From: a virus | IMG/VR virus record: IMGVR_UViG_3300012923_000392 | Span: 1-25,651 of that record | Strand: one strand, 5' to 3' | DNA: 25,651 nucleotides | Part shown: positions 1 through 25,449 of the stretch, piece after piece | How the letters are laid out: the number at the start of each line of letters is the position of its first letter | Position numbering within the stretch: the stretch's first letter is position 1 | Made by a program: the position numbers and the translations under genes | Notes under the pieces: model-generated | The model's database searches: none | Seen by the model: the letters and a program-made list of their open reading frames with translations, nothing else | What the model was told of the DNA's origin: nothing

Positions 1-255
1 TCAGAGCTTGTGAAGATAATAGAAAAGCACTCCAACCATGATGGCGCCCGCGAGAACCGCGATCCGGTCAAACCATTTGCTCTGCGTGAACTCGGGGAGG
101 ATCGCCGCCGGGAGAAACATCGCCAAGAGAAAAACCGTGAGCAGCACGCCGAAGATCTTCGGAATCGCGAGCAGGACCGCGGCGAAAATCGCGCCGATGA
201 CTAGATGGAGCAGGTGGTATTTCGCTAGAGACTGCTCTGCCGTATTGATGTTCAT
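1..255 (-). CDS. Holin candidate with three membrane helices
   Basis: An 84-residue membrane protein from ATG 255 (ATGA overlap with the endolysin stop), ending in TGA at the window edge. Three hydrophobic segments are visible: about residues 14-34 (HLLHLVIGAIFAAVLLAIPK), 36-56 (GVLLTVFLLAMFLPAAILPEF) and 63-81 (RIAVLAGAIMVGVLFYYLH). Size, three helices and position beside an endolysin without a signal peptide fit a class I holin, which opens the inner membrane at a set time. Unlike lambda, the holin follows the endolysin. The end is Lys-Leu, with fewer basic residues than usual for holins, so the role is probable and not proven. No spanin genes are seen inside the window. Confidence 0.65.
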   Translation of the reverse strand: MNINTAEQSLAKYHLLHLVIGAIFAAVLLAIPKIFGVLLTVFLLAMFLPAAILPEFTQSKWFDRIAVLAGAIMVGVLFYYLHKL

Positions 256-839
256 GTGACCTCCAGTGAAGTTCCCGCCGCTGGCGGGGGATTTTTGAGA
301 GCGGAAACGAGCTTTGTGACGGCATCCATGAAGCGCGGCATCCCGGTCAGACCGCCATTCACTCTGCGCCGTACCATCTCCCAATTCTGCTGATCCGCGT
401 AGAACGGAACATGGCGCTCCTCGAAAAAGAGAGCCAGAATATCCGCCGACGTCGCCGGGTCGAGCGCGAGGTCGGGATTCGACACCAGGTCCTTCTCGAT
501 CTCCGAACCGAAGTGCTCGTAATTGACGCGCCCGGTTATCTGGACGAATCCGCGGCCGCGAAATTTCACACCGTCGCCGGGATTCAGGTTCCCGAGGTCC
601 TTCCTGTTGTCGTACAGATTCGAAAGGTAGGTCGGACCGCCCCGCTCCTTCACCGGAGAAAAGTTGCCGGACTCCACGCCGATGGTCGCGATGGCAGCGA
701 CGCCCACCATTGGCGACGTATAAGCGCCTCGCTGGTCGAGAGCCGCCTCCACGAGCGGCCAGTTCACGCGGACGTTCTCTAGCGGACCGAATGGCCCGAG
801 GATCGCGGAGATGATCTCTGGCGAAAGAGGGAAGTTCAT
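252..839 (-). CDS. Endolysin, glycoside hydrolase family 19 type
   Basis: A 195-residue cell-wall hydrolase that would break the glycan strands of peptidoglycan at the end of infection. The GH19 core is clear: AAIATIGVESGNFSPVKE with candidate catalytic Glu56, KFRGRGFVQITGRVNYEHFG at about 92-111, then NPDLALDPATSADI and RRRVNGGLTGM. It is a single-domain enzyme with no signal peptide, so it needs a holin to cross the membrane. The start ATG 839 overlaps the stop of the XhlA-like gene, and its TGA overlaps the ATG of the next gene, so three lysis genes are translationally coupled. An N-terminal segment of about 35 residues may be a short binding or folding arm. Confidence 0.88.
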   Translation of the reverse strand: MNFPLSPEIISAILGPFGPLENVRVNWPLVEAALDQRGAYTSPMVGVAAIATIGVESGNFSPVKERGGPTYLSNLYDNRKDLGNLNPGDGVKFRGRGFVQITGRVNYEHFGSEIEKDLVSNPDLALDPATSADILALFFEERHVPFYADQQNWEMVRRRVNGGLTGMPRFMDAVTKLVSALKNPPPAAGTSLEVT

Positions 840-1138
840 GGTTTCCACCCCTGCAGAATGGCCTTCACAAGTTCGATAAGAAGTGCGCCGCCGGCGGAGA
901 GGGCGAGCATCATCACCCAATTTTTAAGCCGGAGCGACGTCCTCGATGTCTCCAGCGCGCGAATCTTTTCGTGGGCGGAATTGATGTCCCGCGTTGCCTT
1001 TTCGAGAAGAGCCGCGCGGTCCGCAGCGGCCGATTCGGCGAGGCGCAGATGCCCAGCCTTTAGTTCATCGATAGAACGGAGAACCCAGAGACGGTCCTCG
1101 CTCCACGGTCCCCTGAATCGTTCAGATTCGTCGCTCAC
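836..1138 (-). CDS. XhlA-like lysis membrane protein
   Basis: A 100-residue protein starting at GTG 1138, overlapping the previous stop. Residues 12-70 form a coiled-coil-like helix (SEDRLWVLRSIDELKAGHLR, then AADRAALLEKATRDINSAHE), and residues 73-95 form one membrane helix (NWVMMLALSAGGALLIELVK) followed by a short basic end. That layout, a cytoplasmic coiled coil and one C-terminal anchor, is that of XhlA-type holin-associated proteins. A longer frame upstream is a shadow of the preceding gene. Its stop overlaps the endolysin ATG, so it is produced together with the lysis enzyme. The call rests on architecture and context, not on a family match. Confidence 0.6.
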   Translation of the reverse strand: MSDESERFRGPWSEDRLWVLRSIDELKAGHLRLAESAAADRAALLEKATRDINSAHEKIRALETSRTSLRLKNWVMMLALSAGGALLIELVKAILQGWKP

Positions 1139-19215: not shown

Positions 19216-20753
19216 TTGCCCCTCCCGAGTGAAATGAGGCGGCCGCCGGCCGCTGATTTCTTCTCTTCGCTGGCACCGCCCTGGTCCTCGTCCTCTTCGG
19301 TGACCTGGTCCTTTGGACCTTTGTCGACCGTCGGCGCCTTCGCCGCGATGACGAGATCGAGGCCGTACTCCTCGGCGAGTTCTTTCTCTTCCTTCAGGGC
19401 CTCGAAGATTTCCTCGACGTCGCCACCCTGCTCCGCGATAGCCGCATCGCGCGACGTGAGACCCGCTCCGATCCCGAGAATCGTGGCCTGCACGTCCTTC
19501 AGGGGATCGACCCACATCCATCCGCGCGGCTCCCACTTGCCTGCACAGAAGCGCGCCGGATCGCGGGAGTCGAGAACCAGGGCGCCGGAGAGGAGCGCCA
19601 TCGACATCCAGTTCTCGAAAATTGGTTGGTGCATTTGCTCCTTGAAAAGAGACTGGAGCATCTTCCATTGATCGCGCTCGATGAGCAGGCCAGAGCGCAT
19701 CGACGAATAGTTCACACCCTCGAGGTCCGAGGCGAGCGCGTTGTAGGAAACGCCCATCGACGATGCAACGAAACGGAGCATCGCCTTCACAAACATTGGG
19801 AAAGCGGAAGAGGGATGGTCTGGACTCCATGCCGTGAATTTCATACCGGGCGGAATCGACTCGATCACTCCCGGCTCGGCCTCAATTCGATATTTCGCAT
19901 CCGGATTCGGCTCCACGAACGAGGAAGCATCGGTGTGCTCGAAGAACCCCATCTTCGCGGCGCCGGCGCGCGCGGCGACAAGTTCCGCCTCCACATATCC
20001 GCCGAGCATGCGGAGCTCGACCATGCATGGGTGAAACCAGGTGATCCCGCGGGTTTGACTGATGCGCTCGGGATCGTAGAGGTGGAGGATCTGGTCCGCG
20101 GGGATTCGCTCGCGGAGCAGGGAGCCGCCTAGATCGGAAGGGTGCTTCAGGTTGACGTGGTACGCGACTGGGCGACCCCACTCGTCGACCTCGATGCCCA
20201 TGCGGATCTCGTTCTCGGTCTTAGAAGCGAAGCGCGAGAAGAGATGGTCGACCTGGTCGGCGTCGATGAGCTGCAGGGCGAAGCGGTGCTTATTGTTGAA
20301 CCCGCGAATCATCCGAACGAAGACTTCGCCGTCGGTCGCGATGTTCTTCAGCACCAAATTCTGGACACCGCGGAAAGAGAGCTTCCCGTCGGCGGTGCAA
20401 TTTCCTACCTTGCCCCAGTCGGTCCACGCGTCCTCGATCTTCGTGTTGAAGGCGGAGTTCAAAGTCTTGTCATTGTTCCGAACGAGCGCTTTGTAGCCGA
20501 TGCCCTTCTCGCCGAGGACGTTCGACGTGAGGATTTTCAGATAGGACTTTGCAACGGGATTGTTGCGGGACAGTTCACGCGCGCGCGCGCGGAGCAGCCG
20601 CATATTCCCTTTGATTTCCTGATCGGCAGACAGGATCGAAGCGACCCAGTCCATCGTCAGGCGACCGCCCATCGCGCCGTTGTATACCGTCAGTGCGCGC
20701 TTGGCGATTCCGAACGCGTAGCGGAGCCGCCGGAAAAAGGACGGAGCGCTCAT
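19212..20753 (-). CDS. Portal protein, lambda GpB family
   Basis: The dodecameric portal forms the channel at the capsid vertex for DNA entry and exit and docks both the terminase and the tail. With the start at ATG 20753 (ATGA overlap with the preceding gene) it has 513 residues, close to lambda gpB (533). Family features include SRNNPVAKSYLKILTSNVLG near 62-81, KNIATDGEVFVR, LQLIDADQVDH, WGRPVAYHV, IPADQILHLYDPERISQTRG and the basin ASDLEGVNYSSMRSGL. The C-terminus is a charged Glu/Lys-rich tail of about 60 residues. An ATG nine codons upstream (20780) is in frame but has no visible ribosome-binding site. Followed directly by the protease-capsid gene through another ATGA overlap. Confidence 0.93.
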   Translation of the reverse strand: MSAPSFFRRLRYAFGIAKRALTVYNGAMGGRLTMDWVASILSADQEIKGNMRLLRARARELSRNNPVAKSYLKILTSNVLGEKGIGYKALVRNNDKTLNSAFNTKIEDAWTDWGKVGNCTADGKLSFRGVQNLVLKNIATDGEVFVRMIRGFNNKHRFALQLIDADQVDHLFSRFASKTENEIRMGIEVDEWGRPVAYHVNLKHPSDLGGSLLRERIPADQILHLYDPERISQTRGITWFHPCMVELRMLGGYVEAELVAARAGAAKMGFFEHTDASSFVEPNPDAKYRIEAEPGVIESIPPGMKFTAWSPDHPSSAFPMFVKAMLRFVASSMGVSYNALASDLEGVNYSSMRSGLLIERDQWKMLQSLFKEQMHQPIFENWMSMALLSGALVLDSRDPARFCAGKWEPRGWMWVDPLKDVQATILGIGAGLTSRDAAIAEQGGDVEEIFEALKEEKELAEEYGLDLVIAAKAPTVDKGPKDQVTEEDEDQGGASEEKKSAAGGRLISLGRGK

Positions 20754-21361
20754 CGATCGAGGCCCGTGACGTCCTGCCATGTCGGAGGGTAGTCAGGCGA
20801 TTCGTTCTCGAGTGCGAATGCGACGCGGTATGGGACCCCGAGCTGGCCTGGATTGTTCTGACGCCAGATCGACGCCTTCAATTCGCCGCGGATCGTGCGG
20901 AGCTCGGCGATGGGAATTTTCGAGACGGAGCGTCCCGCGATTTGGTACGCCTGAATGTCGGAAGTGAGCCGGCCAGAAATTGCGGCCTCGACGACGGCGA
21001 GCGTGCGCTCCTCCCATGTGTTGAACACGCCGACCGCAGCGCTCGCCACGTTCGGCTCGATATTGATCACGAGCTCATCGCCCGTGATGTCGTACACCTC
21101 TCCTGTTCCAGTGTTCGTGAGTCGCTCGGCGTAGCGGAAGGGACCGGGGTTTAAGATGGCGGTGTCAGCGGGGAGGAACTGGATCTGGAAAATATTGTTG
21201 AGGACCGTGGCGGCTTTGTTGAACTTCTGGGTGAGACCATTCAAGTAGATCGCGTAAGTCCATCCATCCGACGGCAGAAAATCATCCAGTGAACGCGTGA
21301 ACTTTACTGTCGTCCCCGCAGGGAAGTGGTCGGGAACCACATCGGGGATGATGGGTGGCAT
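20750..21361 (-). CDS. Head-tail joining protein with gpW-like C-terminus
   Basis: A 203-residue protein between the terminase block and the portal gene, the place where lambda carries gpW. The C-terminal part (from about residue 118) reads ERTLAVVEAAISGRL, then QAYQIAGRS, IPIAELRTIRGELKASIW. This resembles the gpW-like small joining proteins, whose helix-hairpin-helix fold fills the portal end after packaging. The first ~110 residues are an additional beta-rich domain (GWTYAIYLNGLTQ, then repeated NP/TNTG turns), so it is about three times the size of lambda gpW (68). The start is ATG at 21361, and its TGA overlaps the portal ATG. The gpW assignment rests on pattern and position; an alternative is a combined adaptor/neck protein. 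Confidence 0.6.
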   Translation of the reverse strand: MPPIIPDVVPDHFPAGTTVKFTRSLDDFLPSDGWTYAIYLNGLTQKFNKAATVLNNIFQIQFLPADTAILNPGPFRYAERLTNTGTGEVYDITGDELVINIEPNVASAAVGVFNTWEERTLAVVEAAISGRLTSDIQAYQIAGRSVSKIPIAELRTIRGELKASIWRQNNPGQLGVPYRVAFALENESPDYPPTWQDVTGLDR

Positions 21362-21434
21362 TGACTATGAAAATACGGGGTTTGCCGGATTGCATCTTCT
21401 AGAGAGTTACTCAGTAGGCGGATTTGCTAACGGG

Positions 21435-21472
21435 GAACGGCTCCCGGAGTCGGGGGGACGCGGGAGCCGTTC
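21435..21472 (-). repeat. Strong inverted repeat after the accessory island
   Basis: GAACGGCTCCCG (21435-21446) and CGGGAGCCGTTC (21461-21472) form a perfect 12-base-pair stem with a 14-base loop. It lies in the 142-base gap between the end of the 133-residue membrane protein gene and the start of the gpW-like gene. No T-run follows on either strand, so it is not a typical intrinsic terminator. It could stabilise an RNA end, pause transcription, or insulate the accessory unit from the head operon. The rest of the gap shows nothing I can name. Confidence 0.55.
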
Positions 21473-21503: not shown

Positions 21504-21905
21504 CTAGCGCGAAGTTTGCATCGAACGCAAGGTACCGTTCTGAACATAGAGGTAGTCCCTGCCGTACACCCATTGCTCGTGATCGGCACGCACGGTCGAG
21601 GTGGTGTTGATCCTGTCAGGCTTTCCCCACGAGAGCTGCACCTGCTCCGCCGTCATCCCAATCGACACTTTTTTCTGATCCATCGTCTGACAGGTCTCCA
21701 TATCCCAATCCGCATGCGTCGTGCAGGCCGCGCGGACCGCGGGGCGCTTGAGGAGCTGCAGATCGTGAGGTCGCGTTTCCGCGGCGGCCTGGGCCTGCTG
21801 TCCTTGCGTGGCCATCTCAGCCTGCGAGCTTTTATACATCGCCGAGATCGCAAGGATCACGAGTAGAAGAAAGAAGCCACCGACGATGAGTTTGAGTGCT
21901 TTCAT
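21504..21905 (-). CDS. Membrane-anchored protein with a small C-terminal domain, accessory gene
   Basis: A 133-residue protein with one N-terminal hydrophobic helix (about residues 5-23), a Gln/Ala-rich linker, two cysteines (C61, C72) and a C-terminal domain. That domain reads VSIGMTAEQVQLSWGKP from 80 and then QWVYG and YLYVQNGTL. The GMT..qV...G.P...W.Y pattern recalls the SmpA/OmlA (BamE-like) fold found in small envelope proteins, but the match is by eye only. With the anchor, the domain would probably face the periplasm, where C61 and C72 could form a disulphide. The ribosome-binding site AGGAGG is strong. It has its own copy of the repeated control element and is followed by a strong hairpin, so it looks like a self-contained accessory unit. 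Virion genes on either side do not need it. Confidence 0.65.
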   Translation of the reverse strand: MKALKLIVGGFFLLLVILAISAMYKSSQAEMATQGQQAQAAAETRPHDLQLLKRPAVRAACTTHADWDMETCQTMDQKKVSIGMTAEQVQLSWGKPDRINTTSTVRADHEQWVYGRDYLYVQNGTLRSMQTSR

Positions 21906-21919
21906 GACAATCCTCCTAG

Positions 21920-21975
21920 TTCGATTTTAGAGTGGCCACTCCGAAAAGCGAGATAACCGTCGTATTACTATTCCG
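21920..21975 (-). promoter_or_regulatory. Repeated element copy 1, upstream of the 133-residue membrane protein gene
   Basis: This is the second copy of the 56-base element at 23002-23057. It carries the perfect 12-base palindrome GAGTGGCCACTC (21930-21941), followed in the gene direction by TAAAAT and then the strong ribosome-binding site AGGAGG and ATG at 21905. The upstream end of the element overlaps the stop codon of the acyltransferase gene (TAG, 21970-21968). The same spacing from element to start codon at both genes argues that the repeat belongs to the control region and not to the coding sequence. Confidence 0.5.
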
Positions 21976-22990
21976 AAGGAGCAACAGCGGCCTCCTTGAT
22001 CGTGAGCCGGACTTCGGTGATGCGCTTCCCGATGGCGATCATGGGGGCCTCGATAGTGTGGTACAAGACCACCGGGATAGAAACGAGAAGGGCTATGAAC
22101 AACGTCACTTGAGCCGGGAAAGGAAGTCGAGCTCCGACTTCGAAGGCAAAATAAATGCATACGAAGTGGGCAAGGTATATTCCGTAGGAATACTTCGCGA
22201 CGTAGTGACTAGCCAGGACCAAGGGTTTGAAGGTGATTTCAGAGAACCAGGAGATCGACAACCCCAGCAATGCACAGAACGCGTAGACCAGATACTCGCT
22301 CGCCAGACTGTAAATCAAAACTATGACGATGACGAAGACAGGCCAGCAGAACGCCGGCAGCTTCGGTTCTTTCGTCTTCAGCAGATGGTACGCGGCGACA
22401 CCCGGCAAGAAGCACGGAGCAAAATAAATGAAGTTGGCTAGGGCGATGTTCTGCTCAAACACATGTGAATGATTCAACGCAATCGACGTCAGAAGCACGA
22501 CGAAATAAATCGCCAAAGCTCGGTTCACTGACCGGGACACGGAAAACAAAAATGGGAGAAACAGATACATTAATAATTCGTAAGTCAAACTCCACGTCGG
22601 TCCCAGGATTGGGGACCGCATCGAGAAGGCTTCTACCAGGAATAGATTGGAGAACACGTCCAGGGAATCGTACGGAAATGCGGTGAACCGGTGATAACTT
22701 ACGAGGCCCTGTGGAAGACGGAAGATCACAACGGTTCCGATTGCGATGGCTGCCAGCGGATAAATCCGAAAGACGCGTCTAACCATAAAGGACCGCGCTC
22801 CCGGAGACCGCTCCAGAGATTGCATGAGCACCAAGGAAGTGTGGACGAAGAAAATGTAGACGCCCAGCTTCCCAAAGCTGCCGACAAATACGTGCCCCCA
22901 TGAATTGGTGATACCGAAGAACGCAAGCGCATGACCTCCGGCAACTAAAAGCACAGCGACGGCTCTGAGAAAGTCCAGATTCTTGTTCAT
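21968..22990 (-). CDS. Membrane-bound acyltransferase, family 3 (OafA-like)
   Basis: This is a multi-pass membrane enzyme of the acyltransferase-3 family, whose members transfer acyl (often acetyl) groups to surface carbohydrates such as O-antigen. The start is placed at ATG 22990 because TGGAGACC sits at ribosome-binding distance; ATG 23002 (4 residues longer) is the alternative. From 22990 it has 340 residues. Family marks are the N-terminal LDFLRAVAVLLVAGGH with candidate catalytic His20, KLGVYIFFVHTSL near 41-53, RRVFRIYP near 71-78, and PTWSLTYE ending at Glu138. About ten hydrophobic helices follow one another, as the family requires. It is AT-richer than the structural genes (84/180 G+C against 115/180 in the portal gene), suggesting separate acquisition. 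As a phage cargo gene it may change host surface antigens and block superinfection; this is inference. Confidence 0.85.
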   Translation of the reverse strand: MNKNLDFLRAVAVLLVAGGHALAFFGITNSWGHVFVGSFGKLGVYIFFVHTSLVLMQSLERSPGARSFMVRRVFRIYPLAAIAIGTVVIFRLPQGLVSYHRFTAFPYDSLDVFSNLFLVEAFSMRSPILGPTWSLTYELLMYLFLPFLFSVSRSVNRALAIYFVVLLTSIALNHSHVFEQNIALANFIYFAPCFLPGVAAYHLLKTKEPKLPAFCWPVFVIVIVLIYSLASEYLVYAFCALLGLSISWFSEITFKPLVLASHYVAKYSYGIYLAHFVCIYFAFEVGARLPFPAQVTLFIALLVSIPVVLYHTIEAPMIAIGKRITEVRLTIKEAAVAPSE

Positions 22991-23001
22991 CGGGGTCTCC
23001 A

Positions 23002-23057
23002 TTCGATTTTAGAGTGGGCACTCCGAAAAGCGAGATTACTTCCGTACTACTGTTCCG
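23002..23057 (-). promoter_or_regulatory. Repeated element copy 2, upstream of the acyltransferase gene
   Basis: This 56-base segment matches 21920-21975 at 49 of 56 positions, all in direct orientation. The best conserved part, 23002-23039, differs at only 2 of 38 positions. It contains the dyad GAGTGGGCACTC (23012-23023) and, reading in the gene direction, TAAAAT directly after the dyad, a plausible -10 box. No convincing -35 hexamer is present at 16-18 bases. A transcript starting about 7 bases after TAAAAT would have a very short leader just reaching the GGAG that serves the ATG at 22990. A promoter with an operator in the spacer is the favoured reading. Confidence 0.5.
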
Positions 23058-23070
23058 TATTGATAACGGC

Positions 23071-23232
23071 TCATCGGCGTGCCGACTTCCGGCGCCGACG
23101 CTGTTCGCGGAGCTTCTCCATATCTCGTTTGAATTCGGGGGTCCGAGCCGCCCTGATGGCCTCGCGCAGAAAGTAGACGGAGCCGCAGAACCCTAGAACG
23201 AATACGATGCAGGACCAGGTCTCGCGGCTCAT
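23071..23232 (-). CDS. Small single-pass membrane protein, unknown function
   Basis: A 53-residue protein starting at ATG 23232 within the stop of the preceding gene (ATGA overlap). Residues 6-24 form one hydrophobic segment (SCIVFVLGFCGSVYFL), and the rest is a strongly basic tail (RDMEKLREQRRRRKSARR) that would sit in the cytoplasm by the positive-inside rule. There are two cysteines in or next to the membrane segment. No family is recognised. Small single-pass phage membrane proteins can act in superinfection exclusion or host-envelope modification, but nothing here proves that. It ends 13 bases before the repeated element in front of the acyltransferase gene. Confidence 0.6.
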   Translation of the reverse strand: MSRETWSCIVFVLGFCGSVYFLREAIRAARTPEFKRDMEKLREQRRRRKSARR

Positions 23233-23420
23233 GAGATCACCAGGCCGAATTCTTTGCGCTTCGCCGTGAGTTTCGCCAGAACACAGGAAACGGTCAGGCC
23301 GTGCTCCGGGAGAGAGCAGGAACTCCCAGTGACCGGATCGCGGAAGAGAATGTGGCCTTCCCACCTACCTAGCCACTGTCCGTCCGTCAGTTCGATGATT
23401 CTTTCTGCGTTGGAATTCAT
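23229..23420 (-). CDS. Small unknown protein, first gene of the accessory island
   Basis: A 63-residue soluble-looking protein with an ATG start at 23420 and GGGGAGCC just upstream. It contains GQWLGRWEGHILFRDPVTG near residues 14-32 and two cysteines in the middle. Its alternating hydrophobic pattern suggests a small beta-rich domain. I do not recognise the family. Its TGA shares bases with the ATG of the next small gene (ATGA), so the pair is almost certainly co-translated. It lies directly downstream of the dyad cluster at 23462-23506, which may control it. Phage genes placed between terminase and portal and not needed for the particle are often accessory (moron) genes. Confidence 0.6.
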   Translation of the reverse strand: MNSNAERIIELTDGQWLGRWEGHILFRDPVTGSSCSLPEHGLTVSCVLAKLTAKRKEFGLVIS

Positions 23421-23461: not shown

Positions 23462-23506
23462 AATCGTAGTGAATACTACGAAATCGTAGTGGTCACTACT
23501 ATAGTA
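23462..23506 (-). promoter_or_regulatory. Cluster of dyad-symmetric sites after the terminase gene
   Basis: The 97-base gap between the terminase and the next gene holds three inverted repeats in a row: CGTAGT-gaat-ACTACG at 23465-23480, GTAGTG-gt-CACTAC at 23486-23499, and the perfect palindrome TACTATAGTA at 23497-23506. AATCGTAGTG occurs twice, at 23462 and 23482, exactly 20 bases (two helical turns) apart, which fits cooperative protein binding to one DNA face. The second dyad contains AGTGGTCACT, the same core as the dyads at 21931 and 23013. A TATAGT that could serve as a -10 box lies within the last palindrome, but no good -35 box is seen. An operator/promoter for the small genes downstream is the best reading. 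An RNA hairpin role is possible. Confidence 0.45.
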
Positions 23507-23517
23507 CTTTCGTCCTA

Positions 23518-25449
23518 TCATCGCCAGCCTTGAACCCAGGAAGACCCGCCTCCGGGGCGCTCTGAACCCCCGGATGACCCACCCGTGCCGCCCTGCGGCC
23601 CACCGGAAGGCTGTGTTGGCGGGAGCCGAAGCGCAGCCGCCAGTTCGCCGAGCTTTCGAATCAACGCCTGCCCGAGGACATAGAGCGCCGCTAGGGCGTA
23701 TACCTCGAGATCGAGGGCTTCGTTTCGAGCGCGAGTCTTGATGTATTCGCGGATTGTGCCCTTGCCGCGGCGGTAACGCCTGACCGCCTTCTCAGACGTG
23801 AGCTGCGCGAGATATTCGTCTTCCGCGAAATCGCCGATGTGCATGTAGCCGGGGCCTGGAGCCGGAATTTTCATCCGTGCGAAGATTCTGTCCTTCGCCG
23901 TGTCCGTGCCGATCATCCAGAGCTTCACGCGGTACTGATTGTTCACGCTGAATTTTCCGAGTATCTCCTTCCCTGATTCACTGGACCCTTTCAACGCAAA
24001 AATCTTCCGATGCTGACGCGCGCGAACGAAGCGATAGACCGAGTCCGTGTGGAGACCGCCAGAATCGATCATCGTGCAGGAGATTTTCACCTTCTGGCCT
24101 GACGGGTGCTCCCATGTCGACAGCAGAAATGCATCGAGTTCGTTCCAGACTTCCTCCTGGCCCGGATCGCCAAAGACCTGCTGGTAGGCGATGAGCCAGG
24201 ATTCTTCTTTGTCGCCCCATCCCTTCACCACGCATTCAAGCCGGTCGCTCTGGACGTCCACCGCCGCGGTGAGTATCCCCACGCCATCGGGAACTTCCGC
24301 CTCGTATTGTTCCTGCCGGCTTTTCAGCGCGGAGACCTCGATCGCATCGCCCTGCTCCTCCCACGTTTCGCCGAGCTGTAGATTGATGAAGGCCTTTAGC
24401 TTCTCCGGGTTGTTTTCCTTGTTCGCCTCATGCCATTCCTGCGCGAGCTCGGGCCAGTTCTCGCGCCACGGAGAATACAGGGCGTTGATGTGAAAACCGA
24501 CGACGGGACGGTCGGGAAATTCCGCGACCCAGACGCCGGCGTTTAGCATCTGTTGCTTGAAGCGTTCCGGGATCTGTTTCCTGCATCCGGCACACACATA
24601 CGCCACGCTTGCAGGATCAACCTGGCCGTCCGAATTTGTGGAATAGAAAAGGCGGTATCTCCCATCGCCATTCGGTGGAACCGGATCCCGCCATCGTAGA
24701 GGCTGAGAGAAAGAGCAGAATGGGCAGGGCACATGGAAGCGCCGCATGTCGGACCGCTGGTAGTCCCTCTCGATCGGCGAAATGCCTTTCGGCTTCGCCG
24801 GCGTCGAGCCTTTATAGACTTTGTGGTCCGCGTAGGTCCCGGTCCGCTTCGTGCCGATAGCGATCGGATCGCCCTCGCCCTCGACATCGATCGGATACCC
24901 GTCGACTTCATCGAAGAGCACAATGGGGACCGGATCGCTGCGGAGGCCGGCGCCGGAATTGGCTCCCGTGAGCTTCAGGAATCCGCCGGGAAATTCTTTG
25001 AGCGCGAGAGTGTTGCCAGCGTGGCGAGAAGTAGGTGGTTTTATCTTCACCCTCAGGGCCCGGCACGATTCGATCATCGGCGTGATTCTTTTCTTGCCGT
25101 AATCCCGCGCGTTGTCGATGGTTGGCTGCACCAGCATGATCGGCTTCGGATCGGCGTCGATGAAATAGCCGACGATGTTATTCAGGATCGCGTCGCTGTA
25201 GCCAACCTGAGTGCTTTTCATCACGACGACTTCGTGGACGTTTGGGTCCAGCATCACGTCCATCATTTCGATCTGGAAGCGCTCCGGCTTGAACGGGCCT
25301 GGGCGCGCGGTCGTCCCTTTCGGGAGCACGCGATTCCTGATGGCCCACTCGCTCACTGACAAATCTGGTGGTGGTTCAAATAACCCGTAGACTCGGTCGA
25401 GCATTGCGAGAAAGTTCACCCGCGCCGATGGATGCGTTTCAATCTGCAC
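23518..25449 (-). CDS. terL: Terminase large subunit, GpA family
   Basis: This is the packaging motor ATPase and nuclease, which cuts concatemeric DNA and pumps it through the portal into the prohead. The 643-residue protein has the GpA layout. A Walker A-like segment MKSTQVGYSD is at about residues 77-86, and a Walker B IVLFDE is at 176-181. A four-cysteine zinc-ribbon pair (CPFC near 242, CAGC near 286) follows. The C-terminal nuclease domain has acidic candidates D398 (in AAVDVQSDR), D462 (in MIDSGG) and D580 (in EALDLEVY). The length matches the family (lambda gpA is 641). The C-terminus is a Gly/Ser/Pro-rich tail from about 610, which may be flexible. The start is GTG at 25449, inside the end of the upstream gene. 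The family call is sure; the catalytic assignments are by motif. Confidence 0.95.
   Translation of the reverse strand: MQIETHPSARVNFLAMLDRVYGLFEPPPDLSVSEWAIRNRVLPKGTTARPGPFKPERFQIEMMDVMLDPNVHEVVVMKSTQVGYSDAILNNIVGYFIDADPKPIMLVQPTIDNARDYGKKRITPMIESCRALRVKIKPPTSRHAGNTLALKEFPGGFLKLTGANSGAGLRSDPVPIVLFDEVDGYPIDVEGEGDPIAIGTKRTGTYADHKVYKGSTPAKPKGISPIERDYQRSDMRRFHVPCPFCSFSQPLRWRDPVPPNGDGRYRLFYSTNSDGQVDPASVAYVCAGCRKQIPERFKQQMLNAGVWVAEFPDRPVVGFHINALYSPWRENWPELAQEWHEANKENNPEKLKAFINLQLGETWEEQGDAIEVSALKSRQEQYEAEVPDGVGILTAAVDVQSDRLECVVKGWGDKEESWLIAYQQVFGDPGQEEVWNELDAFLLSTWEHPSGQKVKISCTMIDSGGLHTDSVYRFVRARQHRKIFALKGSSESGKEILGKFSVNNQYRVKLWMIGTDTAKDRIFARMKIPAPGPGYMHIGDFAEDEYLAQLTSEKAVRRYRRGKGTIREYIKTRARNEALDLEVYALAALYVLGQALIRKLGELAAALRLPPTQPSGGPQGGTGGSSGGSERPGGGSSWVQGWR

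Follow-up and report, generated by a model that had tools for sequence, protein, structure and literature searches.

The cargo slot and its repeated element

The window, a whole IMG/VR record of 25,651 bases, is a phage fragment without the regulatory region. Using its terminase as a query, we found 31 relatives, and in those whose contigs extend far enough the gene order TerL, slot, head–tail joining and portal is syntenic. The stretch between terminase and the head–tail-joining/portal genes is variable among the relatives that reach that far, and we refer to it as the slot. In the window, its left border is the gene for the terminase large subunit (23518–25449; PF05876/PF20454) and its right border that for the head–tail joining protein (20750–21361; phrog_5774); the genes involved all lie on the minus strand. 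The window also encodes an endolysin with a chitinase class I (GH19) domain (252–920, minus strand). A TerL 85% identical to that of the window is carried by a 159-kb contig of a Terriglobia (Acidobacteriota) MAG, which suggests that the host is probably a member of the Acidobacteriota. Judging from the integrase genes in 13 of the 15 viral relatives tested, the family is temperate. Among isolated phages, the terminase relatives were all less than 60% identical and no close one was found, and a nucleotide search with the element-bearing stretch against them gave no match.

The first gene after the terminase encodes a 63-aa protein (23229–23420, minus strand) with homologues in the same slot of relatives. 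It is followed by the gene for a small basic protein (MSRETW...EQRRRRKSARR; 23071–23232, minus strand) of a family conserved in relatives, the last gene before the first copy of the repeat described below. Next comes an O-acyltransferase gene (OAT; 21968–23002, minus strand), whose product is an Acyl_transf_3/phage O-acetyltransferase (PF01757, E = 1.1e-23; phrog_3333 O-acetyltransferase, E = 9e-39). The first ATG of OAT, at 23002, lies at the edge of the repeat, and the ATG at 22990 (MNKN...), with GGAG upstream, is the likelier start. The last slot gene, p133 (21504–21905, minus strand), encodes 133 residues with an N-terminal hydrophobic stretch; it has no Pfam match, and homologues are present at L003, L011, L013, L017 and L132. 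Slot contents vary among loci, and OAT is not found in the slot of any relative.

The slot is closed by a GC-rich, terminator-like hairpin, GAACGGCTCCCG...CGGGAGCCGTTC (21435–21472, minus strand), which lacks a clear T run in the window; a hairpin before the head–tail-joining gene is kept in most relatives. After it, a box, CTGAGTAASTCTCTAG, is conserved ~50–75 bp upstream of the head–tail-joining gene (21399–21414 in the window, ~18 loci) and could mark the start of structural-operon transcription.

Within the slot, two 56-bp stretches form the best direct repeat in the window, copy 1 upstream of OAT (23002–23057, minus strand) and copy 2 upstream of p133 (21920–21975, minus strand). They are identical at 49 of 56 positions and at 36 of 38 in the core, with a chance expectation of ~3e-13 for such repeat pairs, so the repeat reported in an earlier sequence-only reading is confirmed. 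On the coding strand the element has the sequence CGGAAnAGTAnTACG...GAGTGnnCACTCTAAAATCGAA, or 5'-CGGAAnAGTAnTACG..CTCGCTTTTCGGAGTGnnCACTCTAAAATCGAA-3', and is followed by the ribosome-binding site of OAT or p133. From upstream to downstream, copy 1 contains a palindromic GTAC box, AGTACGGAAGTAAT (23035–23048), a weak –35-like hexamer, TCGCTT (23028–23033), a dyad, GAGTGCCCACTC, in the spacer (23012–23023), and a –10 hexamer, TAAAAT (23006–23011), assigned by comparing box-to-hexamer spacings. Copy 2 has a degenerate box, AATACGACGGTTAT (21953–21966), the same weak TCGCTT (21946–21951), the dyad GAGTGGCCACTC (21930–21941) and TAAAAT (21924–21929), all on the minus strand as in copy 1. Each dyad, GAGTGGCCACTC or GAGTGGGCACTC (GAGTGCCCACTC on the coding strand), directly adjoins TAAAAT, and the copies, in agreement with the sequence-only reading, precede the ribosome-binding sites of two unrelated genes, one identified by Pfam and PHROG matches and the other without a Pfam match.

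Two other identities for the repeat were considered and dropped. A T7-like promoter, TAATACGAC in copy 2, is not common to the other copies, and an insertion sequence or transposon finds no transposase or recombinase between the repeats, where only OAT lies.

A promoter-like layout conserved before cargo genes

To locate the element in relatives, we combined a weight matrix with a fuzzy search. The full 56 bp are present without indels at L004, L006, L007, L028, L032, L123 and L132, and a shortened form at L017. In the whole records tested, the full element is single-copy, directly upstream of a slot gene and confined to the slot. Scanning 2.9 million viral contigs returned seven stretches, all from this phage family and all from this slot. 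The exact 29-bp core, too strict a query, had no match in viral contigs; matches from a half-element scan were rejected as chance, coming mostly from AT-rich contigs without terminase-family matches. Five unrelated families stand behind the element: p133, OAT, KNI(L/M)VQTDKFTGKTT (169–174 aa), IPEGTQI (232–234 aa) and GLHLGE. On direct reading, the slot-gene products behind it mostly begin with a hydrophobic, signal-like stretch. In related phages the full element is found only in the slot and before cargo. The proposal of a shared control switch is partly supported, in that a promoter-like element is kept while unrelated cargo is swapped behind it; the full element is present once per relative and is not scattered.

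Over its 45 intergenic bp, the element of the window is 69–84% identical to those of relatives, as against 38–49% at fourfold sites of the terminase gene. This argues that the non-coding element is under selection, unless it was exchanged recently among relatives.

The upstream half of the element is the GTAC box, a 14-bp imperfect palindrome with the consensus RGTACYWWRGTNCY, at ~–50 to –37. Many relatives also have the box ahead of the gene that follows the terminase, as does the window, where it forms part of a promoter-like unit (23467–23518, minus strand) related to, but different from, the 56-bp element. This unit contains a GTAC box (23503–23516), a –10 hexamer, TAGTAT (23473–23478), and two AGTRNNYACT dyads (23487–23498 and 23467–23478). 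In ~440 kb of locus sequence, all 18 of the sites that differ from RGTACYWWAGKNMYAT at no more than one position fall in the slot region, with one site for the reversed control. In 23 whole records, the sole GTAC box elsewhere (in the record of L023) lies within a displaced cargo module; this module, L152 (1500–6500 of that record), is separate from the terminase slot and has two GTAC units next to a ribbon-helix-helix gene. The box and hexamer patterns were derived from the regions where they are commonest; a fairer test is given by their absence elsewhere and by the two L152 sites. A resolvase-like reading frame lies near the L152 module.

A –10-like hexamer, with A at position 2 and T at position 6, is fixed at 23–24 bp from the box in six leader families. 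In family-weighted rotation tests none of 4000 trials equalled this spacing, nor did any of 600 that took the maximum over offsets (p<0.001); the leader families are few (six), and patterns and tests share training regions. A –35-like hexamer (TTGnnn/TGGACA/TCGC) starts 1 bp after the box, the offset with the top score in all six families. The resulting layout is box, 1 nt, TTGnnn-like hexamer, spacer of 17 bp (16 in the window subtype) and TAnnnT. In some leader families the start codon lies ~70–100 nt beyond the –10-like hexamer, indicating that the box, not the ribosome-binding site, fixes where the hexamer lies. A simple sigma70 scan found no promoter at the element and no consensus site, the –35 being poor, which is expected if an activator is needed. 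In our reading, the layout is that of a sigma70-type promoter whose –35 is poor and which has a palindromic site covering ~–50 to –37. The idea that several cargo operons of one phage are served by common control sequence thus applies to the upstream GTAC box and the weak sigma70-type promoter, not to the dyad alone.

The motif AGTRNNYACT is ~17 times denser in the slot than outside it, with 10 sites in 59 kb of slot sequence and 4 in the other 381 kb. The dyad GAGTGnnCACTC of the window subtype occupies the spacer next to the –10; other leaders have the dyad at different places between the box and the start codon. The dyad could be an mRNA hairpin in the 5' leader that controls cargo translation, a reading that its place just upstream of the ribosome-binding site invites, as do one pair that varies between T–A, T–G and C–G among relatives and the good folding of some other leaders (L004 3960–4019, z –2.4; six relatives with covariation). 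Against this, RNA folding of the seven type I elements is no better than that of shuffles (z –1.3 to +2.0), the GGCC-centred dyad allows only a short stem, and TAAAAT is kept while its possible 5' partners vary. We therefore consider the hairpin highly improbable and a DNA site, a putative operator, the more likely role of the dyad.

A conserved structured leader, GGGACC-hairpin-GGCCCCTAACC...AAAGTGAGG, was noted in the first cargo unit of six relatives (L014:9965–10066, L035:11983–12087, L009:2713–2814, L007:9733–9834, L008:8068–8172 and L152:2213–2314); at four of its base pairs, both partners vary. Rfam gave no match for the L035 sequence, and Rfam searches in general returned nothing relevant; this is possibly an unrecognised leader RNA.

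Origin of the second copy

In most relatives, a conserved gene of ~70 aa (MKSFTVTAFFPEVKPAHCAW...GKRITEVRLTIKEA...) precedes the slot gene, and its last codons and stop are the first bases of the element. The first bases of copy 2, which correspond to this coding sequence of relatives (...E-Q-stop), coincide in the window with the close of the OAT frame. OAT ends in 20 residues, GKRITEVRLTIKEAAVAPSE, that match the tail of the ~70-aa gene product; this 3' part of OAT (21968–22030, minus strand) is homologous to the C-terminal end of the ~70-aa gene and marks a recombination junction. At L006, another slot gene is joined to the tail of the ~70-aa gene in an independent fusion.

The one-cargo state is represented by L132, where the small basic protein gene is followed by the element and p133. 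The element of this locus shares 54 of 56 positions with the OAT copy, and the flanking junction is the same (...AATACGGAACAG). The match and the common junction place copy 1 at the L132 site and make OAT, the 70-aa tail and copy 2 the extra parts. From these comparisons, the direct repeat is read as the record of two stacked cargo genes, and OAT as a 3' chimera. The probable order of events is that OAT came to lie ahead of p133 through recombination, both at the element and at the 3' end of the former slot gene; on direct reading, the crossover point would be the element, perhaps with GRAAGCGCATC-like microhomology. As noted in the earlier reading, the encoded proteins are unrelated; the second copy appears to have arrived by recombination that stacked two cargo genes.

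These junctions raise the question of whether the element is mainly a recombination joint, a short boundary sequence kept because it promotes the exchange of cargo by homologous recombination and not for expression. The joints of cargo swaps do fall immediately behind ATCGAA, OAT is bordered by the two copies just as expected of a stacked insertion, and junctions are also found in the 3' tail of the 70-aa gene. We nevertheless regard it as unlikely that this is the main role: the spacing of GTAC box and –10 recurs before first cargo genes where the sequence outside the boxes is unrelated, and the uneven conservation, with boxes fixed and spacer free, is promoter-like. Both roles can coexist. 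That the repeat is simply inherited homology from a local duplication, without present function, is hardly credible. One copy does include coding sequence of the old 70-aa slot gene, and OAT carries its tail; conservation well above neutral sites contradicts this reading unless recent exchange of the element explains the low divergence, and the same boxes recur in unrelated leaders.

A putative promoter cassette for phage cargo

Taken together, the repeat is probably a portable promoter cassette for the cargo ('moron') slot of temperate soil phages, with a second copy gained by stacking. What the comparison itself shows is conservation, fixed spacing, confinement to cargo leaders and the swapping of unrelated genes behind the element; expression of the cargo in a lysogen and control by a repressor are putative.

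Morons are cargo genes that have their own promoter and are dispensable for phage growth. They are described as horizontal acquisitions whose transcription does not depend on the remaining phage genes (PMC6469090). The slot resembles them in its envelope-type cargo between structural genes, its own promoter-like sequence, its terminator-like hairpin and its temperate phages. As in a moron, OAT is missing from close relatives at the same site; comparison gives a –35/–10 signal at fixed spacing, a putative promoter, and the GC-rich hairpin, which lacks a clear T run in the window, is a candidate terminator. What sets the slot apart is a promoter cassette that has a defined palindromic box and is retained as one cargo gene replaces another.

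The ESAS of Cluster K mycobacteriophages are intergenic elements of ~46–50 bp with an inverted repeat and SigA-like hexamers by the start codon, found before several unrelated genes (PMC3203893, PMC11373665). Some of the downstream genes are expressed in lysogens and some are not (PMC11373665, PMC3203893), and many copies occur in the non-structural half of the genome together with the 13-bp SAS (PMC3203893, PMC11373665). The likeness is functional only: in both, a conserved intergenic element that precedes several genes contains sigma70-like hexamers. Here one or two copies are limited to a cargo slot among late genes, with another sequence and box order, and the window elements have no SAS, GGGATAGGAGCCC, with 17-bp imperfect inverted repeats and a short variable spacer upstream, only a 12-bp dyad and a 14-bp box. 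By sequence, repeat length, copy number and SAS association, the element does not belong to the ESAS. Compared with known moron promoters and ESAS, we regard the motif as new in sequence and box architecture.

The arrangement also recalls the Mu middle promoter Pm, whose activator is Mor and which has a sigma70 –10, a poor –35 and an imperfect dyad, centred at –43.5, that replaces the –35 (PMC4390567). The GTAC box would be centred at –42.5 to –43.5 (~–42/–43 in copy 1), likewise with a poor –35 and a –10; the sequence is different. No Mor/C-family activator (PF08765) scored above the Pfam cut-off in 15 relatives. Stoperators, which are asymmetric, are similar as short phage-specific sites repeated within one phage group, whereas the palindromic sites described here are fixed within promoters and lie only before cargo. 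In Cluster A mycobacteriophages, stoperators are 13-bp sites that act in transcription regulation (PMC3203893).

In the mechanism that we propose, transcription would start 6–7 bp after TAAAAT, giving OAT and p133 unusually short leaders of only ~9–12 nt. In a role like that of Mor at the Mu middle promoter, a dimeric protein on the GTAC box would help RNA polymerase to make up for the poor –35. A protein bound to the dyad would make the –10 less accessible and so block or tune the promoter. The terminator-like hairpin would separate cargo from structural-operon transcription.

Candidate regulators are small ribbon-helix-helix genes (PF01402), which lie divergently beside GTAC boxes at L011, L013, L016, L020, L028 and L032, the L016 gene (9921–10088, minus strand) scoring above the Pfam cut-off. 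None is present in the window, and GTAC boxes also occur without them. These genes are on the minus strand just downstream of the terminase and divergent from the first cargo operon, each with its own TTGACA-like promoter on direct reading. At L010 (9915–10298, minus strand) a helix-turn-helix regulator, perhaps the antitoxin of a toxin–antitoxin pair, takes the place of the ribbon-helix-helix gene. The Terriglobia MAG shows no enrichment of the GTAC box (4 sites, against 17 with the reversed control), a result that speaks against a host regulon. It is conceivable, if doubtful, that a phage-encoded dimeric regulator, with the ribbon-helix-helix protein as candidate, acts on the GTAC box to switch all cargo operons together, apart from lysis and repressor control. 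If so, any gene landing behind the cassette would come under common control at once.

For uncultured phages, probably of Acidobacteriota, the element would amount to an explicit promoter code that serves passenger genes. By keeping the cassette and swapping the gene, a phage could take on new cargo without new regulation, and the box and its spacing may be used to find cargo genes in related viromes from sequence alone.
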